NCBI RefSeq assembly: GCF_001429065.1
Contig: NZ_LMIB01000012.1
Span: 855,752 to 919,751, forward strand
DNA from: Sphingomonas sp. Root710
GTDB taxonomy: Bacteria > Pseudomonadota > Alphaproteobacteria > Sphingomonadales > Sphingomonadaceae
Direction: 5' to 3'
Length of the DNA stretch: 64,000 bases
Shown: positions 13,346 through 41,742 of the stretch, piece by piece
How positions within the stretch are numbered: position 1 is the first letter of the stretch
Layout of the letters: each line of letters begins with the position of its first letter
Program-made: the position numbers and the translations under genes
The notes under the pieces: model-generated
What the model saw: only the letters and a program-made list of their open reading frames with translations
Databases searched by the model: none
What the model was told of the DNA's origin: nothing

Positions 13346-14230
13346 ATGGCGCAGCCGTTCATCGAGGCCTTTTTCGACGAGCCCACCAACACGATCAGCT
13401 ATCTCGTCGGCGATCCGGCGACGCGGACGGCAGCGGTGATCGACCCGGTGCTCGACTTCGACATGGCGAGCGGAGTCGCCGACACAGGCTCGGCGGAACG
13501 GATCATCGCGTTCGCGCAGGCGCATGACTGGCGGATCGCCATGGTGCTGGAAACGCATGCCCATGCCGACCACCTGTCGGCGGCGCCGTTCATCAAGGCG
13601 CATAGCGGTGCATGGATCGGCATCGGCGCGCATATCCGCGACGTGCAGAAGATATTCCGTCCGGTGTTCGCGATGGACGACCTAAAGACCGACGGCTCGG
13701 ACTTCGACCGGCTGTTCGCGGATGGCGAGCGCTTCGCGATCGGCGGATTGGACGTCGAGGTGCTGCATGTCCCGGGGCACACCCCCGCCGATGTCGCCTA
13801 TCTGATCGGCGATGCCGCGTTCGTCGGCGACACCCTGTTCATGCCCGACTATGGCACGGCGCGCGCCGACTTCCCCGGAGGCGACGCGCGCACATTATAT
13901 CGTTCGATCCGCCGTCTGCTGGCCCTGCCCGACAAGACGCGGCTGTTTCTGTGCCACGACTATAAGGCGCCGGGACGGGACGATTATCGATGGGAGACGA
14001 CGGTGGGCGAACAGCGCCGCGACAGCGTGCACGTCCATGACGGCGTCAGCGAGGATGATTTCGTGGCGATGCGCCAGCAGCGCGACGCGGGCCTGTCGGT
14101 CCCCAAGCTGCTGCTGCCCTCGATACAGGTCAACATCCGCGCCGGCCGTTTCGCCGAGGCGGAAGCGAACGGCGTCAGCTTTCTGCGCATTCCGCTGAAG
14201 TGGAAGAACGGCGGGGATCGCCAAAGCTGA
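13346..14230 (+). CDS. Persulfide dioxygenase-like MBL-fold hydrolase (Blh/ETHE1 type)
   Basis: A 294-aa metallo-beta-lactamase-fold protein. Metal ligands are visible in ETHAHADHL (HxHxDH), GHTPAD and FVGDTLFMPDYGTARADFPGG, the last being the ETHE1/persulfide dioxygenase signature. FLCHDY holds the final His. It oxidises glutathione or protein persulfide to sulfite with one ferrous iron. ATG 13346 is preferred, with GGAG eight bases before it; ATG 13334 is an alternative. It is divergent from bigR and shares its operator region. The product sulfite would leave by the TauE-type exporter. Confidence 0.88.
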   Translation: MAQPFIEAFFDEPTNTISYLVGDPATRTAAVIDPVLDFDMASGVADTGSAERIIAFAQAHDWRIAMVLETHAHADHLSAAPFIKAHSGAWIGIGAHIRDVQKIFRPVFAMDDLKTDGSDFDRLFADGERFAIGGLDVEVLHVPGHTPADVAYLIGDAAFVGDTLFMPDYGTARADFPGGDARTLYRSIRRLLALPDKTRLFLCHDYKAPGRDDYRWETTVGEQRRDSVHVHDGVSEDDFVAMRQQRDAGLSVPKLLLPSIQVNIRAGRFAEAEANGVSFLRIPLKWKNGGDRQS

Positions 14231-14533
14231 CGCGCTCCAGGCGAGCAGCCCGGTCGATCGCCGGTTCCACGACAGCCGGGAGCACCACGTCATCAGCCCG
14301 CGCCAGCGATCGTTCTTTAACAGCGGGGTTTAGGTCAAGGGTAGAATCGACACGCCTTGCCTATTGGGTTCTGGTGGCAGGCCTCGACCCAATTCGGTCA
14401 TCATGCCGCGTGATAGCGAAGCCTATTATCTGCTATGAAACCCTCCAAATTGGACAGTTCTCATTCCAAATCGGTTGCTGCACGCTGGGAAAGCCATTAG
14501 CTTTAATCAAACAATCGAGCGATGATGAGGACC
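14231..14533. other. No gene seen
   Basis: About 300 bases of falling GC content between the dioxygenase and the secreted protein gene. It probably holds the promoter of the latter. No clear -35/-10 pair is assigned. Confidence 0.4.
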
Positions 14534-15187
14534 ATGAACTGGCAAAACCTTACTGCACTCGCAGTTTGCGTTATAAATGTCGGGATGGTCGCTGCGGCCC
14601 CACCTACATCATTCATTTTCTCAGATAACCGAATCGCAGGTGAAGATCGGCCGAGGACGCTGTCTCTTCTTATAACTTCCTGCCAATATGGTATCCGCGT
14701 CCTAAGTGATGAGGGTCGATCCCGAGATCGGATAACCGCCCTCAAAACTGCACTAGCAGAGGAACTTGGGACCGCGCTCGACGGACATACATTGAATATC
14801 CTATCGTATCAGATTTACTTCAACAACGCGGCGGTTGCAGCGAATTCTGCCGCCGGTGTTGTTGGTGGTGTTGCTGGAGCGCTTTTGACAAAAGATTCGA
14901 CCCACGCAAAATGCAGTCATGAGAAAACGCCGGAAGGCTGGTTCGAAGCTGCAGAAACCACCAACGGCAATACCCCATTCGTGATACAGATCAGGGCTCA
15001 GTTCGATGAAGTTTTGGTCGAAACACGCAGTGTGTACTCCCCTTCAATCCTTCTTCGCCTGCCGCCGACGGCCTTTGCTAGCAGAGCGAAGGTCAATTTC
15101 GCGGATGCCGTGGCCGCTCCAGAAGTCGATGCGGCTATCAACAAAGCTAATCTTGATCTTATCAAAAAACTTCGAGTGCGCCTTTAG
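14534..15187 (+). CDS. Secreted hypothetical protein of unusual composition
   Basis: A 217-aa protein I do not recognise. Residues 1-22 (MNWQNLTALAVCVINVGMVAAAP) are a good signal peptide. A glycine-rich hydrophobic segment at ~105-120 (AANSAAGVVGGVAGALL) could span or insert into a membrane. One cysteine pair is possible (SC near 50, KC near 125). ATG 14534 follows GAGG; two further ATGs lie just upstream. Its GC content and codon use (many A/T-ending codons) differ clearly from the flanking genes, suggesting recent acquisition. It sits directly beside the IS110 element. Confidence 0.65.
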   Translation: MNWQNLTALAVCVINVGMVAAAPPTSFIFSDNRIAGEDRPRTLSLLITSCQYGIRVLSDEGRSRDRITALKTALAEELGTALDGHTLNILSYQIYFNNAAVAANSAAGVVGGVAGALLTKDSTHAKCSHEKTPEGWFEAAETTNGNTPFVIQIRAQFDEVLVETRSVYSPSILLRLPPTAFASRAKVNFADAVAAPEVDAAINKANLDLIKKLRVRL

Positions 15188-15524
15188 CAGTCTGGAAAAC
15201 CCCTGCCAGTAGCGAAGATGTCCACGGAACTGAGCCTCTCCATCGCAGCCCTTTGATAAGGTTACGGCAGCACTGCGTCCAACGACAACAAAAGTGGACG
15301 GCCATCTATCCAGTACAAATCGCCATCCTGATCGAGATCATCGTTGCCGGGCTCGTCGTTCTTTCCGAGGTCGGCTGCCGCCGCCTCACTATGGGCTACG
15401 TCGGTTAGATGCCTCATCGTTACCCGCGTGGTCCAAGGCCACAACGATCGCTGCGAGGTCATCAGCCCCATCGTCCCGGCCGGACGATCTGCTCAGGCGA
15501 GCAGAACTGGGAGGATCAATGGTC
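15188..15524. other. No gene seen; flank of IS110 element
   Basis: Open frames on both strands are short and unlike proteins. The stretch probably includes the outer end of the IS110-family element, whose termini have no recognisable inverted repeats. Confidence 0.4.
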
Positions 15525-16554
15525 TCAAGCTTCGGCGGTTTGGGCTGCCCATTCGAACTCCGTGCCATCAACCCAAATACAATGGAGGATTACCGCAATC
15601 TTTCGTGCGACGGCAATCCTGGCCTTTTTTTAAACCGACTCGTTTGGTCAATCGCACGCCCCACGCCTTCAGGGCGGACCATCGCTCGATGCGCCCTACG
15701 AGCACTGACGCCGCCTCGAACAGATACGTCCGCGCGAGACCGTCCCCCAATCTCGATATGCGGCCAGACCAGTCCATCTCTCCAGACTGGTGTCGACGCG
15801 GCGTAAGGCCGAGATAGGCGCCGACATCGGTAGATCGCTTGAACCGCGCCGGATCGTCGATCGCGCTCATGAATGCGAGAGAGGTAAGGGCACCGACACC
15901 CGGCACCGTCATAAGCCGCTTAGCGGTCTCGTCCCTCCGCGCAATGCCGAGTAGCAATCGGTCATATTCCTTGATCTGATCGCGGATCGTGGCGACGACC
16001 TTCAGGAGTGGCATGCACATCGCCGCCAAAACTTCGTTCCGCTCGCACGCGGCTCGAACACGATTGCTGAAGCCCCGCCCGGCCGTGCTGCCCAACATTG
16101 TGCCAGTCGTCTTCATGATATTGCGCGCCTGGTTTTCGAGGTCTCGCCGCATATTGATAAGCCGCTGCCGCGCAAGGAGAAGGGATCCGCGGCGATGCGC
16201 CTCGACCGATTTCGCATGGGCGGCTTTATACCATCCGACCCGCATCAGCTCCGCAAGCCCCCTTGCATCGTTCCGATCTGTCTTGTTGATGTGCATGGAG
16301 AGAGCACGGTGCGCATGCCGGGCCTCCATATGAACCACCCGCAAGCCTTGGCTCCGCAGTTCTCGACATAACCAGCTGCTCGACCCACCAGCTTCCAGCC
16401 CAATGCGCTCGGCATCCCGCGCATGCTTCGCTAGGTAACGCCCGATCGCCTCTGGATCGGTTTGGACCTTCCCCTCCCGTACAAGACCGCCGTCTCGATC
16501 CATAATACAAACGCTGGTCTCGGCTACCGAGACGTCCAATCCCACAAAGAGCAT
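15525..16554 (-). pseudogene. IS110-family transposase with a frameshift
   Basis: A DEDD recombinase of the IS110 family. The RuvC-like N-terminal domain has D7 (FVGLDVS), E54 (GLEAGGS), D93 and D96 (NKTDRNDARGL). The C-terminal Tnp20 domain has KRSTDVGAYLGLTP with Ser241 at the expected nucleophile position. After residue ~310 a run of seven A (coding strand; T at 15625-15631) shifts the frame and the open frame ends at 15568. Dropping one A restores the family C-terminus ([20 protein letters not shown]...), ending at TGA 15525-15527. The intact product would be 342 aa. Either an inactivating indel, a homopolymer error or slippage is possible. Confidence 0.85.
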
Positions 16555-16721
16555 GACCTGACCTCCAATTACAGAAGAAGATTATGCTCCGCTCCGGTGA
16601 GTCGGCGACGCCCCGCTGTCACCGGATGGCCGAGACCCGGCGCGGGACTCGGCGGAGACCGCCTACAGCGGTCGGAGTAGAGCGCGGCCGGCCGCTACCA
16701 GCGGCCGGGGCGCCCGGCTGC
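16555..16721 (-). ncRNA. Candidate bridge RNA region of the IS110 element
   Basis: In IS110-group elements a bridge RNA is encoded in the non-coding stretch before the transposase. Here 167 bases upstream of the start codon hold palindromes such as GCGGCCGGCCGC and CCGCTACCAGCGGCCGG. Placement and GC-rich pairing fit, but loops complementary to target and donor were not identified. Confidence 0.35.
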
Positions 16722-17633
16722 TCAGGCGGCTTCCGCCAGCCTCTCCAATCGCGCCTCGCAGAGACCTCGGACCAGCTCGCCGAGCAGACCGACCCGCTCG
16801 GCCAGCCAGGCAAGCTCTTCGGCCGAAATCCGATATTCGTCGGAATAGCGCGCCTTCACATAGGCGGCGCGGAGCAGCTCATAACAGCGGCGCTCGAACT
16901 TGGCGCCATTAGGCCAGACCTGCTTGAGGCCCGGTTCGATCTCCTCGGAGAGGTTACGCAGCCGGTTGAGATTATGGGTCTTGGGACTGTAGAGCGTCCG
17001 GACCAGGAACAGGCAGTGATAGAAGCGCTCTGCGGCTTGGTGAAGCAGGAAAGCAGCCTCCTTCTCCCACCCGCGAGCAATATTGTCCTGAGCGTTCACG
17101 TAAAAGCGTGAAGCACTCTCAAACCACTCGTCAAAATAGCCGCGCGTCTCCTGCAGCGCCGCCTCGGCCGACAGGGACGTCGGCCGCACGAAAGGGTGGC
17201 CGGGCTCGGCGTGGAGCAGGATACCTTCGCGCAGGATGTCGAGGAAGAAATAGCGGCCGCGCGCGAGCTTGTCGTTCACGGTCGCGAGACTGTCGACGAT
17301 GAAGTTGACCGGGGTGCGCAGCACATCGCCGGCGGCCAGGTCCGCCAATAGCCGGGCGTCGGTGTCGAGCCAGAATTCGGGAATGTCGGCAAGGTCGTCA
17401 TGGTTGACGACGATGAGGATGTCATAGTCGGAGAAATAGCGGCCGATCGGATCGTCGACCCAGTCACCGCGCGCATAGGATCCGAACAGGATGATCTTGA
17501 GGATCTGGCCATCGCGGAAGCGATCGGCGCGGCGACCCGCGATCGCCTCGGCGAAACCGCTGCGCAGCCGCTCGACGACATGCGCGATTTCACGCCGCTT
17601 GGCTTCGGGCAGATGATCGAGACGCCGCTTCAT
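16722..17633 (-). CDS. Fused nucleotidyltransferase-HEPN protein
   Basis: A 303-aa single polypeptide. Residues ~25-130 form a minimal nucleotidyltransferase: LFGSYARGDWVDD (Gly51-Ser52) and FSDYDILIVV, giving Asp69/Asp71 as metal ligands. Residues ~150-290 form a HEPN-type four-helix domain, with ARGWEKEAAFLLHQAAERFYHCLFLV at its core. In two-gene MNT/HEPN toxin-antitoxins the nucleotidyltransferase modifies and silences the HEPN ribonuclease. Here they are joined, so the protein may be self-regulated or act in another way. ATG 17633 is preferred, and ATG 17669 is also in frame. It follows the fseA-like gene in the same direction. Confidence 0.82.
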   Translation of the reverse strand: MKRRLDHLPEAKRREIAHVVERLRSGFAEAIAGRRADRFRDGQILKIILFGSYARGDWVDDPIGRYFSDYDILIVVNHDDLADIPEFWLDTDARLLADLAAGDVLRTPVNFIVDSLATVNDKLARGRYFFLDILREGILLHAEPGHPFVRPTSLSAEAALQETRGYFDEWFESASRFYVNAQDNIARGWEKEAAFLLHQAAERFYHCLFLVRTLYSPKTHNLNRLRNLSEEIEPGLKQVWPNGAKFERRCYELLRAAYVKARYSDEYRISAEELAWLAERVGLLGELVRGLCEARLERLAEAA

Positions 17634-17699
17634 AAACTCAAGACTCGCGCGAAAGCACGCCGATGCCAAGCCGAAACTGCTCCGCGATCGTATCGCCGG

Positions 17700-19128: not shown

Positions 19129-19653
19129 GTGGAAGACGAGGATGAGGATGACGGCCGGAATGCGGTGGGAGTCGGGACACGCGTCGATGCGCTCTTTCGC
19201 CGGCATGCGGGTTGGCTGCAGCGGACCTTGCGCCACCGCTTCGGCGCCGCCGCCGATGAAGCCGAGGATCTCGTACAGGAGGCCTATCTGCGCATCGCGC
19301 GCTATGCCGAGGCTGGGCGCGATCATCATCCCAGGGCGCTGCTGCTGGCGATCGCGCGCAACCTGCTGCGCGACACGCGCCGCAGCGCAGCGCACCGCCA
19401 TCGCTGGACACCGGCCTGGCGCGCGGTCGAGCCCGGCGAACTGCTGCCGGTCGAACCCGACCAGGCCGAGCAACTGCTGCTCAAGCAGGTCATCCTCGGC
19501 ATGCCGCCGGCCTATCGCGACGTCTTCATCCTCTCGCGGTTCACGCCGATGAGCTATGCGGATATCGCCCGCCATTATGGCCTCTCGATCAAGACGGTCG
19601 AATGGCGAATGCGCAAGGCGCTCGAACATTGCGCGGCGCAGCTGCGCTATTAG
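19129..19653 (+). CDS. fecI: ECF sigma factor, FecI type
   Basis: A 174-aa extracytoplasmic-function sigma factor. Sigma region 2 lies at ~20-85 (DALFRRHAGWLQRTL... AEDLVQEAYLRIARY). Region 4 lies at ~115-170 (LLLKQVILGMPPAYRDVFILSRFTPMSYADIARHYGLSIKTVEWRMRKALEHC), where the final HTH reads the -35 element. It starts at GTG 19129, five bases after GGAGG. It is followed by fecR and a TonB receptor with an STN signalling domain, the standard surface-signalling trio. It should switch on receptor and isopeptidase genes, and possibly lasso biosynthesis, when the receptor binds its ligand. Confidence 0.9.
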   Translation: MEDEDEDDGRNAVGVGTRVDALFRRHAGWLQRTLRHRFGAAADEAEDLVQEAYLRIARYAEAGRDHHPRALLLAIARNLLRDTRRSAAHRHRWTPAWRAVEPGELLPVEPDQAEQLLLKQVILGMPPAYRDVFILSRFTPMSYADIARHYGLSIKTVEWRMRKALEHCAAQLRY

Positions 19654-19664
19654 GACGGACCGCG

Positions 19665-20627
19665 ATGCGCGAAGAGAATGACCAGGACGATCCGGAAGCG
19701 CAGGCCGCCTTATGGCTGAGCCGGCTCAACGAGATGTCGGTGTCGACCGAGCTGCTCGAGCAATTCTATGTGTGGCGCCGCGATCCGGTGAACGGCGAGG
19801 CGTTCGGGCGGATCGAATATCTCTGGGATCGCGCGGCGGCGCTGGGCGGCGATCCCGACATCGCCACGGCGGTGCAGGCGGCGCTGACGCGCGAGCCGCC
19901 ACGGCGACGCCTGGCCCCCTGGCTGACGACGCGCCGCGCGGTGATCGCCGGCGGCATCGGGCTGGCGGGTGCGGCCGGGCTCGGCTGGGGGCTGTACGAT
20001 CCCCGTTACGCCACCGCGGTCGGCGAACAGCGCACGGTCATGCTCGACGACGGCAGCAAGGTCATCCTCAACACCGACAGCGCGGTCAGCGTCGCGATGA
20101 GCACCCGCGCGCGGCGGGTCCGGCTGGAGCGCGGCGAGGCCTGGTTCGAGGTCGCGCACGACCGCGACCGGCCCTTTTCGGTCGAGGCCGACGGCGCGGT
20201 CGTCACCGCGCTCGGCACGAGCTTCTCGGTCCGCCGCCAGGGAAACCTGCAGCGGATCGTGCTCGCCGAAGGCCAGGTCTCGGTGGCAGGCGCCGCCGCG
20301 CCAGCGCAACGGCTCGCGCCCGGGCAGAGCATCGAGGTCCGCGACGGCCGGCCCGGACCGATCCGGCCGGTCGATATCGGCGCCGAGCTGGCATGGCGCG
20401 CAGGGCGGCTTTCGTTCAAGGACGTGCCGCTCGGGGCGGCGATCGCCGAGGTCAATCGCTATGCCCGCCGGCCGGTGCGGCTCGAGGTCCCGGCGCTCAG
20501 CCAGGTTCCGGTCAACGGCACCTTCGACACCGGCGACGCCCAGAGCTTCGCGTCGGCGGTGACCGCGCTGTTCCCCCTGGAGGCCCGCACCGGCGATGAC
20601 GGCGAGATCATTCTCACCGAACGTTAG
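19665..20627 (+). CDS. fecR: FecR-family anti-sigma/sigma regulator
   Basis: A 320-aa inner-membrane regulator. The cytoplasmic DUF4880 part (~10-60, AALWLSRLNEMSVSTELLEQFYVWRRDPVNGEAF) binds the sigma factor. A single membrane helix lies at ~90-108 (RAVIAGGIGLAGAAGLGWGL). The periplasmic FecR domain (~115-225) includes VGEQRTVMLDDGSKVILNTDSAVSV, and the C-terminal DUF4974 contacts the receptor STN domain. ATG 19665 lies 11 bases after the fecI stop. The last helix pattern (FKDVPLGAAIAEVNRY) matches DUF4974. Confidence 0.9.
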   Translation: MREENDQDDPEAQAALWLSRLNEMSVSTELLEQFYVWRRDPVNGEAFGRIEYLWDRAAALGGDPDIATAVQAALTREPPRRRLAPWLTTRRAVIAGGIGLAGAAGLGWGLYDPRYATAVGEQRTVMLDDGSKVILNTDSAVSVAMSTRARRVRLERGEAWFEVAHDRDRPFSVEADGAVVTALGTSFSVRRQGNLQRIVLAEGQVSVAGAAAPAQRLAPGQSIEVRDGRPGPIRPVDIGAELAWRAGRLSFKDVPLGAAIAEVNRYARRPVRLEVPALSQVPVNGTFDTGDAQSFASAVTALFPLEARTGDDGEIILTER

Positions 20628-20766: not shown

Positions 20767-23700
20767 ATGACCGACCAGCAACAACGCCATGGCAGCACGC
20801 GTCTAAAGCTGCCGGCGATCGCGCTCGCCGCGGCGCTCGCCGCGATGCCGGCCGAAGGCGCCGGGCCCCGCCTCGCCTTCCACCAGGCCGCCGCACCGCT
20901 CGACGATGCGCTGCAACTCTACGCCGCGCAGACGGGCCGACAGATGCTCTATACCAGCGCGCTGGTCGCGGGACTGCGCGCGCCGGCGATCGAGGGCCGG
21001 CTCGATGCCGATACCGCGCTGCGCCGCCTCCTGGCCGGAACGCCGGTCACGATCGTGCGGCGCGAAGGCCGGCTGGTCGTGCTCGGCGAACGCGCGAAGC
21101 CGGTTGCGAGGCGGCCGAAGCCGGTGCCGCGCGCGGACCGCAAGGCGCCGGCCAAGCCAGTGGTGCCCGACGCGACGCCCGATGCCGCCGAAATCATCGT
21201 GACCGGCTCGAACATCCGCGGCCAAGCGGCGATCGCACCGGTGCTCAAGCTCGACGCCACGGACATCGCGCGGTCGGGCTTTGGCACGGTCAGCGAGGCG
21301 ATCGCGGCCTTGCCGCAGAATTTCGGCGGCACCGCCACCGAGGACAGCGTCGCGACGGCGTCAGATCGCAGCTTCCCCAACACCGGCTTCGGCGCGGGGG
21401 TCAACCTGCGCGGGCTGGGATCGGATGCGACACTGGTGCTCGTCAATGGCCGACGTGTCGCGGGGGCGGGCGGGCGCGGCGACTTTACCGACCTGTCATC
21501 GATCCCGGTCGGCGCGATCGCGCGAATCGAGATACTCACCGACGGCGCCTCGGCGATCTACGGCTCAGACGCGGTGGGCGGCGTGGTCAACATGATCCTG
21601 AAGAAGGACTATGAGGGCGCCGAGACCCGGCTCAGGCTCGGCGGGGTCACCAAGGGCGGTGCGCGCGACTATCAGTTCGGCCAGCTCGCCGGACTGCGCT
21701 GGCCGACCGGCCATGTCTTCGCGTCCTATGAGTTCTCGCGACGCGAGGCGCTGCCCAGCGCGGCGCGGCGCTATACCGCGACCTCCGACCTGCGCGCGCT
21801 CGGCGGCAACGACTATCGGGTGCCCTATGCGATGCCCGGCAATGTGCTGCGGTTCGACGCGGCGCTCGGTACCTATGTGGCCGCCTTCGCGATCCCCGAC
21901 GGGCAGGACGGAACCGGGCTGACCGCGGCGAGCTTCCGGCCCGGCGGCAATCTCAACAATCAGCGCGCCGGCACCGACATCCTGCCGCGCCAGACCCGCC
22001 ATATCGGCTATGCCTATGCCGAGCAGCAGGCGGGCGACGATGTCACGCTGTTCGCGGAAGGGCGCTATGCCCGCCGCCGCTTCCATCTGCTGCTCGCCTC
22101 GACCTACACCGCCTTTCCGATCAGCGCCACCAACCCCTATTTCGTCAGCCCGACCGGGGCGGCCTCGGATATCATCGGCTATAGCTTCCTGCGCGAACTC
22201 GGCCCGAGCCGCAACGCTGGCACTGTCAGGACCTGGAGCGCCGCGGCCGGCGGCACGGTCAAACTCGGCGGCGACTGGCGGCTCGACGTCTATGGCGCAC
22301 GCGCGGTCGAACACACCTTCTACCGCAACGACAACACGATCAATTCGACCTATTTCTACGAGGCGCTGGGCGTCACCCCTGACAATGTCGCGACCGCCTA
22401 TGATCCGCGGCGTGACGGCTATTTCAATCCCTATGGCAGCGGCCACTCGAACAGCGCGGCGCTGCTCGCTTTCATCAACCAGGGCTATAGCGTCGAATAT
22501 GACGATGCCCGGGTCGACGATATCGTCGCCAAGGCCGACGGCGCGCTCGTCGACCTGCCCGGCGGCACGGTGCGGCTGGCGGTCGGAGCGGGCCTGCGCT
22601 GGGAGCATTTCGCGCGCCATGGCGAGACCTTCTACGACGGGGTAGCGCCGACGCCGCTGATCCCAACCGATGCGACGCGGCGGATCGGGTCGGCCTTCGC
22701 CGAATTATCGCTGCCGCTGGTCGGCGCAGACAACGCCGTGTGGGGCGTCCGCCGGCTGCTGCTGACGGCGGCGGTGCGGCACGAACATTATCAGGATGTC
22801 GGCAGCACCACCAATCCGAAGCTGGGTCTCGCCTGGGAGCCGGCGAACGGGCTGAGCTTGCGGGGGAGCTGGGGGACCTCGTTCCGCGCGCCCTCGATCA
22901 AAGAGGTGACCGATCCGCTGCGGGTTTCGACCGCGCAATATCCCAATGCCAGCGGCGGGCGAACGCCGGTGCTGGCGCTGAGCGGCGGCAATCCCGGCCT
23001 CAAGCCGGAGACGGCGCGGACCTGGTCATTGGGCGCGGCCTTGGCCCCGACCGCACTCAAGGGCCTGCGCGTCGAGGCGAACTGGTTTCAGACGCGCTTT
23101 CGCGACCGGATCGGGCGGCCCGCTTTCGAGAATCCGACCCGGGCGCTGCGCGACCCGAGCTATGCGCCGTTCATCACCCTGCTCGATCCCGTCAACAATC
23201 CGGCCGATGCCGCCCGGCTGCAAGCGCTGCTCGACACGCCCGGCGCGGTCTCCTCGGTGCTGCTGCCGGTCAGCTCACTGCGCGGCATCGTCGATGGGCG
23301 TTACGTCAATACCGCGAAGACGGTGGTACAGGGCGTCGACCTGCTGCTCAGCCAGGCGCTCACGCTCGGAACCAGCAGCCTCCAGCTCAGCGCCAACGGC
23401 ACTTGGCTGATCGACTATAAGAGCCAGGTGACGCCGGCGGCGGCGCTGGTCGAACGGGTCGCGACGGTCGGCAATCCCAGCGATTTCCGCAGCCGGGCGA
23501 CCATCAGCTGGGACCGCGGGCCGCTCGGCGCAACGCTCACTGCCAATTATGTCCATGGCTATCGCGACGACATCAGCGTGCCGAACCGCCATATCGCCAG
23601 CTGGACGACGCTCGACGCGCAGCTGCGCTACAGCCCGCAAGGGCCCGGCTGGGCCAAGGGGCTCACCGTCTCGCTCAGCATCACCAATCTGCTCGCCACC

Positions 23701-23802
23701 GACCCGCCCTTCGTCAATATGGCGACGGGCTATGGCTATGATCCGGCCAACGCCGATCCGCTCGGCCGCTTCGCGGCGCTCCAGATCAGCAAGAAATGGT
23801 GA
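20767..23802 (+). CDS. TonB-dependent receptor with STN domain (lasso-peptide uptake)
   Basis: A 1011-aa outer-membrane transducer receptor. It has a signal peptide (~12-32, LKLPAIALAAALAAMPAEG) and an STN domain at ~35-105 that talks to FecR. A TonB-box-like EIIVTGSNIRG is followed by a plug (~140-260, TDGASAIYGSDAVGGVVNMILKK) and a 22-strand barrel ending in ALQISKKW with a C-terminal Trp. The gene lies 28 bases before the lasso isopeptidase gene. Known lasso clusters of this type carry a receptor thought to re-import the peptide. Ligand assignment is inferred from context. GGGGAAC precedes ATG 20767. Confidence 0.9.
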   Translation: MTDQQQRHGSTRLKLPAIALAAALAAMPAEGAGPRLAFHQAAAPLDDALQLYAAQTGRQMLYTSALVAGLRAPAIEGRLDADTALRRLLAGTPVTIVRREGRLVVLGERAKPVARRPKPVPRADRKAPAKPVVPDATPDAAEIIVTGSNIRGQAAIAPVLKLDATDIARSGFGTVSEAIAALPQNFGGTATEDSVATASDRSFPNTGFGAGVNLRGLGSDATLVLVNGRRVAGAGGRGDFTDLSSIPVGAIARIEILTDGASAIYGSDAVGGVVNMILKKDYEGAETRLRLGGVTKGGARDYQFGQLAGLRWPTGHVFASYEFSRREALPSAARRYTATSDLRALGGNDYRVPYAMPGNVLRFDAALGTYVAAFAIPDGQDGTGLTAASFRPGGNLNNQRAGTDILPRQTRHIGYAYAEQQAGDDVTLFAEGRYARRRFHLLLASTYTAFPISATNPYFVSPTGAASDIIGYSFLRELGPSRNAGTVRTWSAAAGGTVKLGGDWRLDVYGARAVEHTFYRNDNTINSTYFYEALGVTPDNVATAYDPRRDGYFNPYGSGHSNSAALLAFINQGYSVEYDDARVDDIVAKADGALVDLPGGTVRLAVGAGLRWEHFARHGETFYDGVAPTPLIPTDATRRIGSAFAELSLPLVGADNAVWGVRRLLLTAAVRHEHYQDVGSTTNPKLGLAWEPANGLSLRGSWGTSFRAPSIKEVTDPLRVSTAQYPNASGGRTPVLALSGGNPGLKPETARTWSLGAALAPTALKGLRVEANWFQTRFRDRIGRPAFENPTRALRDPSYAPFITLLDPVNNPADAARLQALLDTPGAVSSVLLPVSSLRGIVDGRYVNTAKTVVQGVDLLLSQALTLGTSSLQLSANGTWLIDYKSQVTPAAALVERVATVGNPSDFRSRATISWDRGPLGATLTANYVHGYRDDISVPNRHIASWTTLDAQLRYSPQGPGWAKGLTVSLSITNLLATDPPFVNMATGYGYDPANADPLGRFAALQISKKW

Positions 23803-23829: not shown

Positions 23830-26241
23830 ATGCTAACCCTCGCAAAGACGCTCGTACGTGTCTGGCTGCTGCTGTACGCCGGACTGGCGCCGGCCAAGCC
23901 CTTCTCGGTCGACGCGATGCTGCGCAATCAGAGCTATGGCCATGTCTGGGTCGATCCGGACGAAAGCTGGGCGGTGGTCGAGCGCCGCGCGCGCTATGAT
24001 AGCGCAAGCGACTATGGCCTCGGCAGCTTCACCACCCGCCAGCTATCGAAGCTGTGGCGGATCGATCTCGTCCGGGGCGCCGCCGCGACGCCGCTGTTCG
24101 ACCAGCGCACCGACACCGGCTATTGGGCGGAAGGCTTCTCGCCTTCAGGCCGCTATCTCGCGGTGATGGCGCTCCGCGACCGGCGGCTGCGGCTCGGCCT
24201 GTTCGACATGCGCAGCGGCAGCCTGCGCTGGCTCGCCGGCACGCCCGACATGCCTTTCGCGCAGCCGGGACCCTTATGGCTCAGTGACGACCGACTCATT
24301 CGCGTGCAGCTCAGCTCGCCGCAGCTGCCGCGGCTGCTCGACGGCACGAGCGGCGCCGCCGACCGGGTCGCCGCCGGCTGGCAGCGTCAGGCGGGCGGGC
24401 ACGAAAGCTCGCTGAGCTGGCTGTCCTCGACGCATGCCACGGCGGGTGACAGCAGGCGCGAGGTGCGTCTGCAGGATCTTACGAGCGGCAGCGACCGGCT
24501 GTTATGGCGCGGTGAGCTCAGCGACGTCGCGCTGTCGGCCGACCGGCGGTTCATCGCCATCGTGTCGCTGACCGGGCTGCGGCGCCCGCGCGGCGACGAA
24601 CCGCTCGGGCTGGATTTCCAGAGCCGCGGACGGACGCTCACGATCATCGAGGTCGCCAGCGGCCGCAGCTGGCACCCTTGTCTCGCCTGCGATTTCGCGC
24701 CCAACCTGCTGCGCTGGTCACCGACCGGCGCGGCGCTGCTGGTCTTCGCGCGCGGCCATAGCGACAGCGGATGGCAGACCGGCCGGCTGCTGCGGCTGGA
24801 GCCCGCCGCGCGCCGCATCGTCCGCTGTTCGCCGCCCGGGCTCGACGCGGTGACTGGCGCGGGCGACGCCGGCAGCGGGCTCGTCGTCGCCGCCAGCTGG
24901 GCGGGCAGGATGCCCTTGCTGTTCGCCAGACGCGGAAGCGCGCGCGCCGACTGGTATGCGCTGGAACCGGGCAGCCCCCGGCCGCTGACGACAATGATGC
25001 GCTCGCCGCCATCGGCGTTGGTCAGCAGCACGGCCGGGGGGATCGCCCTGCTCGGCGACGGCGCCTATTGGCGGATCGGACTCGACGGGGCGGTGCGCGC
25101 GCGGACCGCCGGCATCGTCTCGGCCGGATCGACCACGCTTGACCCCTATCATTTCGGCGGACGCGGCATGTTCAACATGCCACCCTTCACGCCGCAGCCG
25201 CTGATTCGTCGCCTGTCCGAAGGCGTGGCGACGCTACACGGCCGCGCCCGCGAGGCGCTGCTCGACCTCCCGCCCGGCCGGCAATTGCTGGCATGGGCGC
25301 CGCGAAGCCGGCGCGCGGTGCTGCTCATTCGCCACGAGGCCGGCGATGCCGAACTGGCCCTATTGGCGGCGGGCCAGGTGCCCAGGGTGGTCGACCGGAT
25401 CAACATGCATCTGGCGGGGCTCGATCGCGCCCGGGCCGTGGCGCTCGCGGCGACCGCACCCGACGGAAGCGCGATGACGCACTGGCTGTTGCTCCCGGCG
25501 CAGCCGGCGTCGACGCCGCCGCCGCTGGTGGTGGTCCCCTATCCCGGCAGCGTCTTCGGCCGCGACCACGCGCCGTCCCCCGGCGCGGACCGGATCTTCG
25601 CCGAGACCAATGGGCTGCTGCTCGCGGCGCACGGCTATGCGGTGCTCTATCCGAGCCTGCCGCTGGCCGCCGACAACCATGAACCCGCCGCCGCCATCGC
25701 CGCAGGCGTCGACCGGGCGGTCGACGCCGCGATCGCCAGCGGTCGGATCGACCCGCAGAGGATCGCGCTGTGGGGGCATAGCTATGGCGGCTATGCGGCG
25801 CTCGTCGTCGCGGCAAGCAGCCGGCGCTATCGCGCGATCGTCGCGTCGGCGGCGCCAAGCAACCTGCTCGCGCTCCATGGGACGCTGGTGCCGCGCACCG
25901 ACAGCGACAGCGCTGCGCACTATCTGGCGATGCCCGGCGCGACCGAAGGCGGCCAGTTTCGCATGGGCGCACCGCCCTGGGCGGCGCCCGAGCGCTATCT
26001 CCGCAACAGCCCGGCACTGGCGGCCGACAAGATCGAGACACCATTGTTGCTCGTCCAGGGCGATCTCGACTTCATCCCGCTGGCCCAATCGGAGGCGCTG
26101 TTCACCGCGCTCTACCGCCGCGACCGTCCGGTCGAGCTGCTCCGCTATCGCGGCGAGAATCATATGCTCGCCTCGCCGGCCAATATCCGCGAGATGCTCG
26201 GCCATGTCCTCGCCTGGCTCGACGAAAGGCTTGGCCGATAG
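23830..26241 (+). CDS. Lasso peptide isopeptidase (S9 family)
   Basis: An 803-aa prolyl-oligopeptidase-like hydrolase. Residues 1-22 are a signal peptide (VWLLLYAGLAPAKP), and a beta-propeller-type region follows to ~530. The alpha/beta-hydrolase domain has the nucleophile Ser651 in GHSYGGYAAL, Asp747 in GDLDFIPL and His778 in GENHML. Enzymes of this subgroup (astexin isopeptidase AtxE2 type) hydrolyse the Gly-Asp/Glu isopeptide bond that closes the lasso ring. The secretion signal places it in the periplasm, where it would meet peptide brought in by the receptor. Its stop is 2 bases from that of the macrocyclase gene on the other strand. Confidence 0.87.
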   Translation: MLTLAKTLVRVWLLLYAGLAPAKPFSVDAMLRNQSYGHVWVDPDESWAVVERRARYDSASDYGLGSFTTRQLSKLWRIDLVRGAAATPLFDQRTDTGYWAEGFSPSGRYLAVMALRDRRLRLGLFDMRSGSLRWLAGTPDMPFAQPGPLWLSDDRLIRVQLSSPQLPRLLDGTSGAADRVAAGWQRQAGGHESSLSWLSSTHATAGDSRREVRLQDLTSGSDRLLWRGELSDVALSADRRFIAIVSLTGLRRPRGDEPLGLDFQSRGRTLTIIEVASGRSWHPCLACDFAPNLLRWSPTGAALLVFARGHSDSGWQTGRLLRLEPAARRIVRCSPPGLDAVTGAGDAGSGLVVAASWAGRMPLLFARRGSARADWYALEPGSPRPLTTMMRSPPSALVSSTAGGIALLGDGAYWRIGLDGAVRARTAGIVSAGSTTLDPYHFGGRGMFNMPPFTPQPLIRRLSEGVATLHGRAREALLDLPPGRQLLAWAPRSRRAVLLIRHEAGDAELALLAAGQVPRVVDRINMHLAGLDRARAVALAATAPDGSAMTHWLLLPAQPASTPPPLVVVPYPGSVFGRDHAPSPGADRIFAETNGLLLAAHGYAVLYPSLPLAADNHEPAAAIAAGVDRAVDAAIASGRIDPQRIALWGHSYGGYAALVVAASSRRYRAIVASAAPSNLLALHGTLVPRTDSDSAAHYLAMPGATEGGQFRMGAPPWAAPERYLRNSPALAADKIETPLLLVQGDLDFIPLAQSEALFTALYRRDRPVELLRYRGENHMLASPANIREMLGHVLAWLDERLGR

Positions 26242-26243
26242 GC

Positions 26244-28085
26244 TCATGACCAGCGGCGCAGCCAGGCCTCGACGCCGGCGTAGAAGATGAGCACCCGCGC
26301 ATGAGGCTCGGTCATCAGCCGGTCCTCATCGAGCATGGCCGCGAGCCGCGCACGATCGAGCAGCCCGCGCCGCACCAGCTCTCCGGCGAGGAGATGATCG
26401 CGCAGGAAGGCGAGATTGGCGACGAGCGCCCGGTTCGAATAGCGGCTGCTCTCGCCCTTGCCGGCGCGCGCGACGATCGCGGCGGGCAGGCGGCCGGAGA
26501 AGGCGTCGCGTGCCAGCGAGCGATCGCGCGCATCGGCCGACAGCAGAAAGACCGGCAGTGCGAGGCAATATTCGATCAGCGGCTGCGACAGCAGCGGATG
26601 GACCAGCGCGATGCGGCGCCCGCGGGCCGTGGGCGACAGATAGACCAGCGCGTTGACGATCGCCTCGAGCTGGCGCTGCTTGGCCGGCGGCAGCGCTTCG
26701 GCGCCATCGAGCCAGGGATGCCGCCCGGCCCGGTCGGCGATCAGTCCGCGCGCATGGTCGGTCAGGAAACCAGCGCCATAGGCCGCCGCCGCGGGTGGGC
26801 GATGGCGGTACCCGAGCTGGTCGGCGGCCATCGTCCCCCAGATCCGCCAGATCGAACATTGCGCGCGCCGGGCTATCGTCCACGGGAAGGCCGAAACATA
26901 GGCCCTCGCGCCGAGGGCGCGCCGATAATCGACCGCCATTTCGGGATAGGGCATCTGGAAGAAGACCGCGTCGCCGCCCTGTCCGGTCCAGAGCGCGGTG
27001 ATCCCCTTATCGCGGGCAAAGGCGGCGAGCATCGCCTCCTGCTGGACATCGAGCCCGTAAAGCCGCGGCGCTGCAAGCGCCGCGGCCGGGACCAGCTGCG
27101 ACATATCCACATTATCGGCGGCGAGTTGACGCTCCGCGAGCCCGACACCATGGCATTCGGCGGCCGCGCGCGCATAGCCGCGCTCGTCGCCCTCGCGGTG
27201 ACGCACGTGGAGATTGATCGCGAGGATATCTGCAGGTGGTATGGCAGCGGCCAGACTGGAGAGCACGATCGCTGAATCGAGGCCGCCGGACAGTTGCAGC
27301 CCGACGCGGGGTAAATCGCTCGCCCAGGCACGGCAGACGCGGTCGACGATATCGACCAGGCCGGCCCCAGCCGCCTCTGCCGAGCCGGACCATGGCTGGG
27401 ATGCGAAGGCCAGCGGCGACCAGCTTGCGACCGGCGCGGCGAGATTGTCGAGCGCATGGAGGCGGCCAGGCTTAAGCAGGGTCGTCCCGGCGATTGCACT
27501 CCTGAACAGCGGCACGATCGGATCAGCGAGCAGGGCGGCGACGCTGGCGTCATCGACGGACAGGCGAAGCGATGCCGCGCCGCAAAGCCAGGCCGGCCAG
27601 GAAGGCGACAACAGCACGATCCCATCGGCTTCGGCGGCATAGAGGACGATGCCCCCTATCGGGTCGCGCAGGACGTGGCCAGGCCGCCTGGTTGCCGGAT
27701 CGCTGAACAGCGCGACATAGCGCCCCCAGGCGAGGCGGGTCAGCGCGGTTGCGCGCGAAGCCGGAGCAGGGCCCGCGCCGGACAGCAGCGCCCCCAGGCG
27801 ATCCCCCCCGATGCGAAGGCCGTCACGATCGAACAGGTCGCCGATGACGATCGCCTGCCGGTCCGGCGACGATGTCACCGTCATATGCCGCGGGTCACCC
27901 CAAAGCGTCCAGTGGGCGCCGGTGGCCAAGCAGGTCAGGCGGTCGCCGCCATGCGCGTCGACCATCGCGCGGAGATGCGCTTCCCGCCGCCGCGTGCCGT
28001 CGTCGTCCCGCAAGCGCAGGACGATCAGCAGGTCGAGGTCGGGATCCGGTTCAGGTGACGAGGATCGGGGTGAACCAGCGGACAT
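26244..28085 (-). CDS. Lasso macrocyclase C (asparagine-synthetase-like)
   Basis: A 613-aa ATP-dependent ring-forming enzyme. The N-terminal ~200 residues are a degenerate glutamine-amidotransferase-like domain with no catalytic Cys at position 2. The C-terminal domain holds the PP-loop LQLSGGLDSAIVLSSLAA that adenylates the acceptor Asp/Glu side chain, then LWTGQGGDAVFFQ. It joins the freed alpha-amine of Gly1 of the core to that side chain. I start it at ATG 28085, which overlaps the B gene by 35 bases; the frame remains open upstream but is not protein-like. Translational coupling with B is likely. Length is normal for proteobacterial lasso C proteins. Confidence 0.87.
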   Translation of the reverse strand: MSAGSPRSSSPEPDPDLDLLIVLRLRDDDGTRRREAHLRAMVDAHGGDRLTCLATGAHWTLWGDPRHMTVTSSPDRQAIVIGDLFDRDGLRIGGDRLGALLSGAGPAPASRATALTRLAWGRYVALFSDPATRRPGHVLRDPIGGIVLYAAEADGIVLLSPSWPAWLCGAASLRLSVDDASVAALLADPIVPLFRSAIAGTTLLKPGRLHALDNLAAPVASWSPLAFASQPWSGSAEAAGAGLVDIVDRVCRAWASDLPRVGLQLSGGLDSAIVLSSLAAAIPPADILAINLHVRHREGDERGYARAAAECHGVGLAERQLAADNVDMSQLVPAAALAAPRLYGLDVQQEAMLAAFARDKGITALWTGQGGDAVFFQMPYPEMAVDYRRALGARAYVSAFPWTIARRAQCSIWRIWGTMAADQLGYRHRPPAAAAYGAGFLTDHARGLIADRAGRHPWLDGAEALPPAKQRQLEAIVNALVYLSPTARGRRIALVHPLLSQPLIEYCLALPVFLLSADARDRSLARDAFSGRLPAAIVARAGKGESSRYSNRALVANLAFLRDHLLAGELVRRGLLDRARLAAMLDEDRLMTEPHARVLIFYAGVEAWLRRWS

Positions 28086-28719
28086 GTTCGAGTGTGTCGG
28101 TAAGGACGATGCCATCATATTCCACCCAGCAATGCGCCTCGAACGGATGGGTCCGGACGCCGAACACCCATTGGGCGTCAGCACCGCACAGGCGCAGATA
28201 TTCGAGCAGCAGGAAGGAGCGGACCAGACAGCGGCCCGACCGTGGCACGAGCGGCCGCAGCCGATCGACCCGGCGCGCGCACTCGCATAGCATCTCGCGG
28301 CCGGCACTTGATCGCCGTGGCCGCCGCGCCCGCCGGGCCTGCCGCTCGGCGAACCAGCGGGCGGGCGATCCCGCCCGCAGCGCGCTGGCGACCCGGCCGG
28401 CAGCGACGATCAGCCTGGCGAGGTCGGCTGCGCCGAGCCGCGACGGCGGATCGCGGCCGAGGTCGGCCTGCGCGGTCTCGGCGACCCGCCCCGCCCAGGG
28501 TGCCGGGTTGGCCTGTTCGACAAGCAGACGCTCGGCGATCAGCGCATCGAGGATCTCGTGCGAGTCGGTGCAGGAAGCGTCCATTGCCAGTGCCGCCAAC
28601 ACGGCGGCGCCGTGGCGGCGCGCGACGCACAGATATTGGTCCGAGGCGGCATCAAGGAAGACGAGATCGCCATCGACGACGGCAAGATGGACGTCGGGCG
28701 CGAGGCTGACAGCGCGCAT
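28051..28719 (-). CDS. Lasso B protein, fused B1 (RRE) and B2 (leader protease)
   Basis: A 222-aa protein. Residues 1-80 form a PqqD-like recognition domain (VHLAVVDGDLVFLDAASDQYLCV) that binds the leader. Residues ~95-222 form the transglutaminase-like cysteine protease, with triad candidates Cys164 (SGRCLVRS), His196 (EAHCWVEY) and Asp208 (VLTDTLEH). It removes the leader just before Gly1. Start ATG 28719 leaves 43 bases after the precursor stop, filled by a strong hairpin. No good Shine-Dalgarno is visible, so translation may be modest. Many lasso clusters split B1 and B2; here they are one chain. Confidence 0.87.
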   Translation of the reverse strand: MRAVSLAPDVHLAVVDGDLVFLDAASDQYLCVARRHGAAVLAALAMDASCTDSHEILDALIAERLLVEQANPAPWAGRVAETAQADLGRDPPSRLGAADLARLIVAAGRVASALRAGSPARWFAERQARRARRPRRSSAGREMLCECARRVDRLRPLVPRSGRCLVRSFLLLEYLRLCGADAQWVFGVRTHPFEAHCWVEYDGIVLTDTLEHVRWFTPILVT

Positions 28720-28728
28720 ATGGAAATA

Positions 28729-28754
28729 GGAGCGGCGGCCGAAGCCGCCGCTCC
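28729..28754 (-). terminator. Hairpin between precursor and B genes
   Basis: On the coding strand GGAGCGGCGGC-TTCG-GCCGCCGCTCC: an 11-bp perfect stem capped by a stable UUCG tetraloop, with no U-tract. It starts 8 bases after the precursor stop. It should protect the precursor message or cut read-through, giving more A than B and C. Confidence 0.7.
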
Positions 28755-28762
28755 CTTCACGA

Positions 28763-28882
28763 TCAGCCGACGGGACGGAACAGCGGCGAGCTGTCGAGCT
28801 CGTCGGCGCCGATCGGGCTGACGCCACGGGTCTCGGCCTTGACCGACCCCAGCCGGGTCACCCGGGTTTTGGTCTTCGTCAT
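28763..28882 (-). CDS. Lasso peptide precursor A
   Basis: A 39-aa precursor starting at ATG 28882 (GAGGAG 8 bases before). The 19-residue leader MTKTKTRVTRLGSVKAETR ends in Thr-Arg, giving the threonine at -2 that lasso proteases and cyclases require. The 20-residue core is GVSPIGADELDSSPLFRPVG (bases 28766-28825). Gly1 can bond to Asp8 (8-residue ring) or Glu9 (9-residue ring). The C-terminal SSPLFRPVG would thread, with Phe16 and Arg17 as likely plugs. By my hand calculation the dehydrated monoisotopic mass is 1994.01 Da. The core matches no lasso peptide I can recall, but resembles the family of sphingomonad peptides. Confidence 0.88.
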   Translation of the reverse strand: MTKTKTRVTRLGSVKAETRGVSPIGADELDSSPLFRPVG

Positions 28883-28959: not shown

Positions 28960-29562
28960 TCACAATATATTATCGCCCGCAGCGCAGCGAACAATCTGCT
29001 CGCAGCGCTGAATCCGGCGGCGGATGTGCTGGCCGGCGATGCGGCGGATCTGCGCGGTGGCGTCGGCATCGATCGCGGCGAGGAGCGCGCGCAGCGCCGC
29101 ATGTTCGGCCATGTCGGGCGCAGCCTCGCAACGCCGATAGGGCAGCAGCCGATGGTCGCTATAGGCCCATATCGCCGCGAGCGCGCCGTCGCCGGCCGCG
29201 TTGACGAGGCTGGCGAGCAGCGGATCGATCGCGTGCCAAGGGCCGATCGGCGCCCGACGCGCGGGGACGGACGCCGCCGGACCGACTGGAGACGTGACCG
29301 CCGCGCTGACCAGCAGCAGCCGCAGCCGATAGATTTCAGTCAGCTGATGGGCGTGAAGCCTCGGCACGAAATAGCCGGCGCCCGGCCGCTCGGCGAGCAG
29401 CCCCTCGCCGGCGAGCCGCGACAAGGTCTCGCGGACCGGAATCGGGCTGATCCGCAGACGCTCCGCCAGCGGCGCGATCCTGAGTGGCGCCCCCGGCGAG
29501 GCCGCGCCCGAGCGGATGGCGGTGACCACCAGGCGCCGGACATCGTCAGCGTGGCCGGTCAT
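28960..29562 (-). CDS. GntR-family regulator
   Basis: A 200-aa regulator of the FadR/FCD-like layout. The N-terminal winged helix has APLAERLRISPIPVRETLSRLAGEGLLAERPGAGYFVPRL, the classic GntR recognition helix. A helical C-terminal ligand domain follows. GAGGAAGGA lies before ATG 29562. It is 77 bases upstream of, and codirectional with, the precursor gene, so it may control the lasso operon or be co-transcribed with it. The ligand is unknown. The upstream frame to 29682 is not protein-like. Confidence 0.85.
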   Translation of the reverse strand: MTGHADDVRRLVVTAIRSGAASPGAPLRIAPLAERLRISPIPVRETLSRLAGEGLLAERPGAGYFVPRLHAHQLTEIYRLRLLLVSAAVTSPVGPAASVPARRAPIGPWHAIDPLLASLVNAAGDGALAAIWAYSDHRLLPYRRCEAAPDMAEHAALRALLAAIDADATAQIRRIAGQHIRRRIQRCEQIVRCAAGDNIL

Positions 29563-29880
29563 CGTCCTTCCTCTTCGGCCTGCACGTGCTGAAGTCCACG
29601 CTACGCGCGACGCCGCGGAGCCGGATATATTCGTCGGATTTGGAGTAATGCGGGGTCGACATCCGCGATTTTTTGGCGGCATCTTACACTGTTATGCCAA
29701 CTTACGGCGGATTTTGCGGGCTTGGCCCCATTGCTTTGCGGCTTCACCACCAAGCGGGCGGGCAACGCGCCCAAAGCGCCGTGCGAGGTTGGTTCGCCAT
29801 TGCGCGCCGATCCTCTGCACGGGATGGCGCAATGATTGCCGGGCGCTGGATCGCCTGGGACCACGCCCGGTGAGTCCGCC
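29563..29880. other. No gene seen
   Basis: About 320 bases between divergent regulators (GntR on -, XRE on +). No domain-bearing frame. Promoters for both should be here. Confidence 0.4.
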
Positions 29881-30387
29881 ATGAACGTAACTGGCACCGA
29901 CAAGAGCGAGGAACGCGCGCAGGCGGCGCTGATCGCGAAGGCGTTGCGGTCAATACGCAAGGCGCGACGCATGAAACCGTCGGAAGTCGCCGCGGCGATG
30001 GGGATGCCGGTGAGGACCTATGAGCATTTCGAAGCCGGAACCGGTCGGATCACCTATGCCCGGCTGGCCCGGTTCGCCCAGGCGACCGACAGCGATCCGG
30101 TCGCCATTCTTGCCGTGATTCCCCTTCGCTCAGCGGAGTTCGCCTTGCGCTGTGCCGACAACAAGCTGATGACGATCGTGACGGCGGCGCTGCGGGAGCT
30201 CAACGAAGAACTTGGTCCCGATCTCGAATATCTGAACGTCAGGACGTTGATCGGCGCGATGGACAAGCTCGGCAAGGAGCTCACCGAGCATGTTCGGCGG
30301 CGTGACCTGTTCGCCGAACGCTGGATGGAGGAAAAAGCCTCCAAGGTGGAGGGCGTGACGATACCGCCCAAGCGCAAATTCCCCTGA
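29881..30387 (+). CDS. XRE-family HTH regulator, 168 aa
   Basis: An N-terminal Cro/CI HTH at ~15-80 (IAKALRSIRKARRMKPSEVAAAMGMPVRTYEHFEAGTGRITYARLARFAQAT), followed by a helical C-terminal half (NKLMTIVTAALRELNEELG) that may dimerise or bind a partner. Start ATG 29881 follows GGTGAG. No obvious operon partner. It stands between the lasso cluster and the ion-stress block and could belong to either. Confidence 0.8.
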   Translation: MNVTGTDKSEERAQAALIAKALRSIRKARRMKPSEVAAAMGMPVRTYEHFEAGTGRITYARLARFAQATDSDPVAILAVIPLRSAEFALRCADNKLMTIVTAALRELNEELGPDLEYLNVRTLIGAMDKLGKELTEHVRRRDLFAERWMEEKASKVEGVTIPPKRKFP

Positions 30388-30740: not shown

Positions 30741-32042
30741 ATGAAAACAGGTCCAAATAGTTCATTATCCGCGGCCGCCAGCCATCGATCGAGGCCCGCT
30801 GCAAGCCACCTCGTGGTGGCTGTGAGCGGTGGACGCGAGACGGCCGGGTTGCTGGACCATGCAGAGCGGCTTGCGACCGCCTTGGGCATCGGCTGGGAAG
30901 CCCTCCACGTGGAGACGCCGGAACAGGAGCATGACCCGGATCGCGTTAGGGGCGTCGCCGAGGCCCTGAGCAGGGCCGCTGCATTGGGTGCATCGATCGC
31001 GACGATAGCAGCGGCGACGGTCGGCGATGGGCTAAGCGCGCATCTCCGATCGTCACGGGCGGATCATCTCGTCATCGGCGCTGCGCGCTCCGATGGATCA
31101 TGGCGTCGGTCCAGCGACAAGCTGGCTGCTACCGTGTCCAGGGACATAGCCGATATAGCTTTGCACATTTATCCGACGGCCGGCGCGAAGCCGGCGCGAC
31201 GCAGTTTGGCAGCCCCCTCGCCGGCGCTGACGGTCTGCCCCCGTCACGTCGCCCTGGCGAGCCTTGCGGTCGCTGCCACCTTGCTCATCGCCGAAGGCCT
31301 GCAGCTGTGGATGAGCAGCCGCTCGCTCGATCTGCTCTTTCTCTTTCCCGTCATCGCAATGTCGGCGCGCTACGGCTTCATTCCCGGGCTGACCGCCGCG
31401 TTCCTGTCCGTGCTGTGCTACAATTTCTTCCTACTGAGACCGGCATTCAGTTTTGATCCGGCGGCGCCGCAAAATGTGGTGATGGGCGTCGTGCTCGCGG
31501 TGGTCAGCGTGTATACAGGGGTGATGACCCATCGCCTGCGGAGCAGGCTGGTGCTGAGCGACCGCAGCGCCCAGGAGAATGCGAGCCTCGCGGCCTTTGC
31601 ACAACGATTGACCGGCGATGCGAGTTGGGAAGCGACGGCGGCAACGGTATGCGAGCATGTTCATCGCCTTTTGAACGTCCACACGGTGCTGTTGCGTGAA
31701 GTTGGAGGCGAGTTGGAGGTCGCCGCCGCAGCGCCCGCGTTCGAGGAGATCGGTCCGGTCGACCGTGCAGCGCTCGACTGGGCGTGGCAGCATGGCACGG
31801 CAACCGGTGCGGGAACCGCGACATTGGCTTCGGCCAACTGGCAGTTCCAGCCACTCAAGACATCTCTCGGCATTCTGGCCGTCCTGGGACTGGCGCGCGC
31901 CGATGGTCGCGACCCCACGCCGCCACATCAACAGCTAATGCTGTCCACCATCCTGGCCCAGGCCGCGCTGGCGCATGAACGCCTGAGGCTTGAGGACGAC
32001 ATGAAAGCATCTCGTCCGCCGGCCGACGAGCAGCGAGACTGA
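30741..32042 (+). CDS. KdpD-like sensor without histidine kinase (USP-DUF4118-GAF)
   Basis: A 433-aa membrane protein. Residues ~22-150 form a universal-stress-protein-like nucleotide domain (LVVAVSGGRETAGLLDHAERLATALG ... DHLVIGAARSDG). Residues ~165-280 form the four-helix DUF4118 module of KdpD (LLFLFPVIAMSARYGFIPGLTAAFLSVLCYNFFL). Residues ~285-415 form a GAF-like domain. The dimerisation and ATPase domains that should follow are absent; the protein ends 20 residues later at a proper stop. No KdpFABC or KdpE gene is nearby. It could be a stand-alone sensor that modulates a kinase encoded elsewhere, or a remnant. Confidence 0.82.
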   Translation: MKTGPNSSLSAAASHRSRPAASHLVVAVSGGRETAGLLDHAERLATALGIGWEALHVETPEQEHDPDRVRGVAEALSRAAALGASIATIAAATVGDGLSAHLRSSRADHLVIGAARSDGSWRRSSDKLAATVSRDIADIALHIYPTAGAKPARRSLAAPSPALTVCPRHVALASLAVAATLLIAEGLQLWMSSRSLDLLFLFPVIAMSARYGFIPGLTAAFLSVLCYNFFLLRPAFSFDPAAPQNVVMGVVLAVVSVYTGVMTHRLRSRLVLSDRSAQENASLAAFAQRLTGDASWEATAATVCEHVHRLLNVHTVLLREVGGELEVAAAAPAFEEIGPVDRAALDWAWQHGTATGAGTATLASANWQFQPLKTSLGILAVLGLARADGRDPTPPHQQLMLSTILAQAALAHERLRLEDDMKASRPPADEQRD

Positions 32043-41577: not shown

Positions 41578-41742
41578 ACCAGATAAGCGACATGCGTCTG
41601 CCTTGACCACGGCCTCCGGGTTGTGCGCTGCCCTACCGTCTGCGATAGGAAAAAGCTCGGGTGCTCGCTTCCCGACTGCAGCGAGCAGGTATCTGTGCTG
41701 GTCGGGCCGCCAGCAGGGCTTATCGACACCCGGGATCCCGTG

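Follow-up and report, generated by a model that had tools for sequence, protein, structure and literature searches.

A predicted isopeptidase-type lasso peptide cluster of the caulonodin and caulosegnin kind in Sphingomonas sp. Root710

Analysis of a 64,000-nucleotide stretch of the Sphingomonas sp. Root710 genome (the window) indicates with high confidence that it holds a complete isopeptidase-type lasso cluster of the caulonodin IV-VII/caulosegnin kind, including the genes for biosynthesis of the peptide. The original prediction of a lasso-peptide operon consisting of a precursor gene A and the maturation genes B and C was borne out, as B and C score above the cut-offs of their families and precursor-like reading frames recur in the relatives. 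The interval given there for the operon, 28051-28882, spans A and B only and leaves C mostly outside. The domain searches ruled out a bare A-B-C operon and revealed a nine-gene isopeptidase-type cluster instead (Table 1).

As had been anticipated, the core was absent from the full texts searched, and therefore the predicted peptide looks unreported, while its kind of cluster is well known. The cluster provides one more predicted peptide, and both the mass and the ring size of this peptide can be tested. Of greater use is the branch of lasso clusters to which the cluster belongs, with its own regulator, its own family of S9 peptidases and a near-universal hairpin between precursor and enzyme genes. 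These three features are handles on the purpose of isopeptidase-type lasso peptides.

Gene content and maturation enzymes

Gene content, catalytic residues, leader motif and conservation of the cassette were read directly from the sequence.

Table 1. Features of the predicted lasso cluster (positions refer to the window).
Feature	Position	Strand	Remarks
A, lasso precursor	28763-28882	-	39 codons plus stop; leader MTKTKTRVTRLGSVKAETR, core GVSPIGADELDSSPLFRPVG
A-B hairpin	28728-28755	-	12-bp stem, TTCG loop, directly 5' of the B start codon
B, N-terminal RRE fused to C-terminal cysteine protease	28051-28719	-	NCBIfam, catalytic residues, fold
C, Asn-synthetase-like macrolactam synthetase	26244-28085	-	Pfam Asn_synthase, PP-loop SGGLDS
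GntR-family regulator	28960-29562	-	upstream of A, same strand; Pfam GntR
XRE/HTH regulator	29881-30387	+	divergent from GntR; Pfam HTH_31/HTH_3
S9 (prolyl-oligopeptidase) peptidase	23830-26241	+	convergent with C; presumed lasso isopeptidase, divergent family
TonB-dependent outer-membrane receptor	20767-23802	+	STN signalling domain, plug, barrel (Pfam)
FecR-like anti-sigma factor	19602-20627	+	domain search
FecI-type ECF sigma factor	19129-19653	+	Sigma70_r2 and Sigma70_r4_2

The precursor A has the features of a lasso precursor: it is short, with Thr at -2 and an acidic residue within core positions 7-9. Translation confirmed the predicted length, the Thr at -2 and the core sequence. The leader of 19 aa is basic, contains the motif RLGSxxxxT and ends with Arg at -1, and the core comprises 20 aa. 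Against the benenodin precursor model NF033522 the protein reached 12.2 bits, below the cut-off of 33.

Protein B (222 aa from the ATG at 28719) contains Cys164, His196 and Asp208 as predicted. In 17 aligned B sequences Cys164 and His196 are invariant and the column of Asp208 is occupied by Asp in 12 and by Glu in 5 cases. The score against the NCBIfam model lasso_biosyn_B2 was 71.8 bits (cut-off 33). A sequence profile of B found no match in the PDB, and therefore the RRE was checked using a predicted model (mean pLDDT 90, from 17 sequences) and a fold search. The best Foldseek match of the model was TbiB1, a leader-bound lasso RRE (5v1v; E 0.015, probability 1.00), and no match was obtained at E 0.001 or better. 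The presence of an RRE in B is supported by the predicted fold, not by sequence.

Protein C, predicted as Asn-synthetase-like with a PP-loop, comprises 613 aa and was confirmed as such by a score of 95 bits against Pfam Asn_synthase (cut-off 21) and by the sequence SGGLDS at residues 266-271, in which every residue except Leu269 is strictly invariant in 17 aligned sequences. None of the NCBIfam lasso-cyclase models was matched at its cut-off. With the start codon chosen as the probable one, C overlaps B by 35 bases. The GntR regulator scored 43 bits against Pfam GntR (cut-off 27) and is also present in the clade relatives; ATG 29562 is its presumed start, the frame is open to 29682, and the query used for the searches covered 28963-29592.

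The combination of a TonB receptor carrying an STN domain with FecR and FecI is the plan of siderophore sensing. The order of the genes agrees with the plan of isopeptidase-type clusters, as GntR precedes A, the TonB receptor and the sigma/anti-sigma pair lie beyond the peptidase, and an ABC exporter was found neither in the cassette nor among the 30 ORFs of the window that were scanned. This lack of an exporter distinguishes the cluster from the microcin J25 type, with which it has the chemistry of B and C in common. The available text of a published account places GntR ahead of the precursor and the TonB and sigma/anti-sigma genes beyond the isopeptidase, and contains no mention of an XRE gene (PMC9266682).

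Relatives, the XRE regulator and the A-B hairpin

Of 397 genomes in the family, 26 (among them the window's own) contain a relative of C at E <= 1e-40. One of these 26, G262, contains two lasso clusters (L020 and L029) on two contigs; their C scores are equal and their precursors are identical. XRE, GntR, B, C, the long S9 and TonB were all present, in variable order, in 16 of 20 fetched stretches of up to 20 kb, and the remaining four (L048, L050, L051 and L052) hold another type of cluster. The scan of named genomes contributed 80 loci, the best-scoring ones among 130 relatives.

A tree was calculated by a quick method from 96 C proteins, leaving out loci whose C score did not exceed 200 as well as L053, L084 and L126 (taken as the genomes of L034, L038 and L040). 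The window was located in this tree inside a clade of 35 rows with an SH-aLRT support of 100, next to L033. The genera of this clade include Caulobacter, Phenylobacterium, Brevundimonas, Sphingobium and Sphingomonas. Assignment to the caulonodin IV-VII/caulosegnin type is based on the clade shared with L064 and L128, which stand in for the published strains, as the C proteins of these strains are not among the rows of the tree. L064 encodes the exact core of caulonodin VI and a core near caulonodin VII, and L128 encodes three cores near caulosegnins I-III, judged by the cores in the available text of PMC12427821.

With caulonodins IV-VII of Caulobacter sp. K31 and caulosegnins I-III of C. segnis the window shares, besides the C clade of L064 and L128, a basic leader (RLGxxxxxT) and an acid at core position 9, which in caulosegnin I is found at 8 instead; both stand-in loci also contain the long S9, TonB and FecR. 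In contrast to these systems, the window has a different core sequence and a single precursor instead of two or three, and its core starts with Gly1 and not with Ser or Ala as in caulonodins IV-VII. In the 41 distinct cores of the clade the first residue is Ala in 19, Gly in 18, Ser in 3 and Asp in 1, and the Ala and Ser starts agree with those of caulonodins IV-VII. The Asp start, unusual for a lasso peptide, belongs to L069 from Brevundimonas, where the assignment of the core is putative. The clade leaders are basic, with a net charge of +2 to +8. Clusters of the benenodin/astexin/sphingopyxin type likewise combine GntR, A, B and C with a convergent S9, TonB, FecR and FecI, but the S9 proteins of these clusters group in a clade of their own, no XRE gene turned up next to them, their leaders are mostly acidic and their cores mostly have an acidic tail end.

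The nearest relative, L033 in genome G003 of the same genus, has the same gene set as the window and the core SILPFGVEEFSGAPLYRPAV, which by eye agrees at 7 of 20 positions. Identity between the two loci is 47% for C, 60% for B and 51% for S9, and the XRE regulator, with 71%, is conserved above these enzymes.

Outside caulonodin/caulosegnin-type lasso clusters the XRE gene is almost absent. Matches to it were obtained in 31 of the 35 rows of the clade, including the window, and in 0 of the 61 rows outside the clade, some being short contigs. Two of the clade rows lacking a match, L059 and L065, end before its place. L070 and L075 include the place and show no XRE match; about 1.4 kb are present beyond GntR in L070, and the genes of L075 are split in the assembly. 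Across the family the gene occurs in 19 of 397 genomes at 20 places, 18 of them adjoining a lasso cluster. The exceptions are an orphan copy on an 11.9-kb contig of G006 (L133, 3320-3985), a genome of the same genus as the window, and a 53-residue fragment with a stop in G211. In Sphingomonas melonis AS2.3 (L063, 17002) the XRE gene is located between TonB and FecR and not beside GntR. When the upstream regions of 31 XRE genes were searched for a common operator, no word stood out clearly against shuffled sequences. No description of an XRE regulator of lasso clusters was found in the literature searched, which lay outside most subscription papers, including the one on caulonodins IV-VII.

In 32 of the 33 clade members compared, L061 being the exception, the last precursor is followed by a stem of at least 9 pairs, counted with one mismatch and G-T pairs permitted; such a stem occurs in 24% of 660 control windows taken from these loci. 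In the window, no good ribosome-binding site was found between the hairpin and the ATG of B. We infer that the hairpin may set the level of the enzymes below that of the precursor. According to the available text of PMC6092494, a strong ribosome-binding site placed in the A-B gap increased yields 1.8- to 84.5-fold, part of the gain perhaps resulting from the loss of extra precursors, and removal of the hairpin is mentioned for astexin-1 in the accessible part of PMC7549694. Because of this earlier engineering of gap and hairpin the element is not new in kind. A search of Rfam identified no RNA family within the cluster.

The S9 peptidase

Lasso isopeptidases belong to the S9 superfamily. The S9 protein of the cluster represents a divergent family and is presumed to be such an isopeptidase. 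Its Ser651 and His778 are invariant in 17 sequences and an S9 fold was matched. Because the protein is far from AtxE2, with 66.4 bits against the Atxe2 family model NF033523 and a curated cut-off of 400, its isopeptidase role is inferred. It could instead be a general peptidase which trims the linear product or degrades material imported by the receptor, an explanation to which we give about one chance in five. Besides the low score, this reading is favored by the profile of the clade S9 proteins, which matched a Geobacillus S9 peptidase with 136.6 bits and AtxE2 with 58.7 bits. The fold search with the model gave the same order, general S9 enzymes coming first and AtxE2 and SpI-IsoP ranking 44th and 47th among the 50 matches listed; as a test for isopeptidases it was discarded, since it cannot separate these from other S9 enzymes.

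To the same side belongs a tree of 81 S9 proteins, calculated by a quick method from 23 long proteins (22 and that of the window), 25 of 26 short proteins (all but that of L068, which could not be located) and 33 general proteins drawn, out of 73 matched places, from six genomes. The long family forms one clade with support 100 and the 25 AtxE2-like proteins form another with support 99, and a common origin of both families apart from the general S9 proteins received support 0. The AtxE2-like family includes the A. benevestitus locus and a locus that encodes what we take to be the sphingopyxin I core. Against a general peptidase stand the Atxe2 model, which is nonetheless the best NCBIfam model of the protein, its position in the cassette, which matches that of known isopeptidases, and the long-S9 clade itself, in which none of the 33 sampled general proteins was found. 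In addition, caulosegnin I is already named among the clusters with a lasso-specific isopeptidase in the available text of PMC5067487.

Ring closure and the proposed cycle

The original prediction left the ring to be closed at Asp8 or Glu9. The relatives favor Glu9, and Asp8 stays an alternative as the core of the window has acids at both positions. Among the 41 distinct cores, which stem from 33 clade rows including the window (L065 and L070 contributed no precursor, and the precursors of L047 and L049 were taken from L019 and L030 at the same places), position 9 is acidic in 38 (36 Glu, 2 Asp) and position 8 in 9. Position 9 without 8 is acidic in 32 cores, 8 without 9 in 3, and both in 6; the two Asp9 cores also carry Glu8. 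As the extraction of precursors demanded an acid near positions 7-9, which biases the absolute frequencies and affects the contrast between 9 and 8 less, the weight is placed on this contrast. On these frequencies the ring is probably closed between Gly1 and Glu9, and not at Asp8. An eight-residue ring closed at Asp8 by the same lasso cluster appears unlikely. Against it stand the frequencies above and the nearest relative L033, in which positions 8 and 9 are both Glu. In its favor, Asp8 is present in the core, and benenodin-1, with its ring of eight residues, offers a precedent. Asp8 is also conceivable because the caulosegnin enzymes make rings of both 8 and 9 residues, the ring of caulosegnin I having 8, according to the available text of PMC13352647.

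For the lasso form the predicted [M+H]+ of 1995.018 was calculated correctly. The value of about 2012.02 given for the linear peptide is its neutral mass, and the corresponding [M+H]+ is 2013.029. Because the S9 gene adjoins the operon, linear peptide in the native host would still be compatible with a lasso product. At the proposed plug Phe16-Arg17, L033 has Tyr16-Arg17, which fits such a plug without proving it.

That the cluster is degenerate and silent and that no peptide is made is very improbable: of the 14 congeneric genomes searched, only 3 have a relative of C (E <= 1e-20), one being the window's own and one of another type, and the cluster is therefore accessory, but all nine reading frames are open, B, C and S9 retain their catalytic residues, and a good ribosome-binding site (AGGAG, 7 bases 5' of the ATG) precedes A.

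For the isopeptidase-type cluster with a nine-residue ring, characterised relatives suggest how cleavage, ring closure, threading, uptake, signalling and linearisation may proceed. The RRE of B would bind the basic leader at RLGSxxxxT and the cysteine protease of B would cut after Arg19. C would then activate the side-chain acid, most likely Glu9, and join it to Gly1, while the tail would be threaded and held by the bulky residues around Phe16/Arg17. The TonB receptor may take the peptide back up, perhaps with bound cargo, its STN domain would signal to FecR and FecI and so raise the receptor's own operon, and the S9 peptidase would then open the ring. Uptake, sensing and linearisation form a likely cycle, held with less confidence than biosynthesis. 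Published hypotheses, in the available text of PMC9266682, are carriage and release of cargo or control of the peptide level.

We tentatively propose, as a possibility with the odds clearly against it, that caulonodin/caulosegnin-type clusters represent a distinct regulatory system, in which the clade-specific XRE regulator, conserved above the enzymes, acts with GntR and STN-FecR-FecI, a separately recruited S9 peptidase opens the ring, and the peptide, as a messenger or carrier, is retrieved, its return being detected and subsequently erased. In a Sphingomonas, loss of a B gene has been linked to lost use of phenanthrene, with a precursor of the other, acidic type (available text of PMC11006600).

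On the far side of the cluster, at 984-17669, the window contains genes of the mobile-element kind, for a serine recombinase, an IS110 transposase, a DUF3363 protein and a HEPN protein, and an integrase gene is located at 45192-46508. A KdpD-like protein encoded at 30741-32042 has DUF4118 and GAF matches and no match to a Pfam kinase domain. At 41659-41715 an nhaA-I riboswitch (Rfam RF03057, 53.7 bits) fronts the gene of a Na+/H+ antiporter, whose ORF, listed from 41623, probably starts later.
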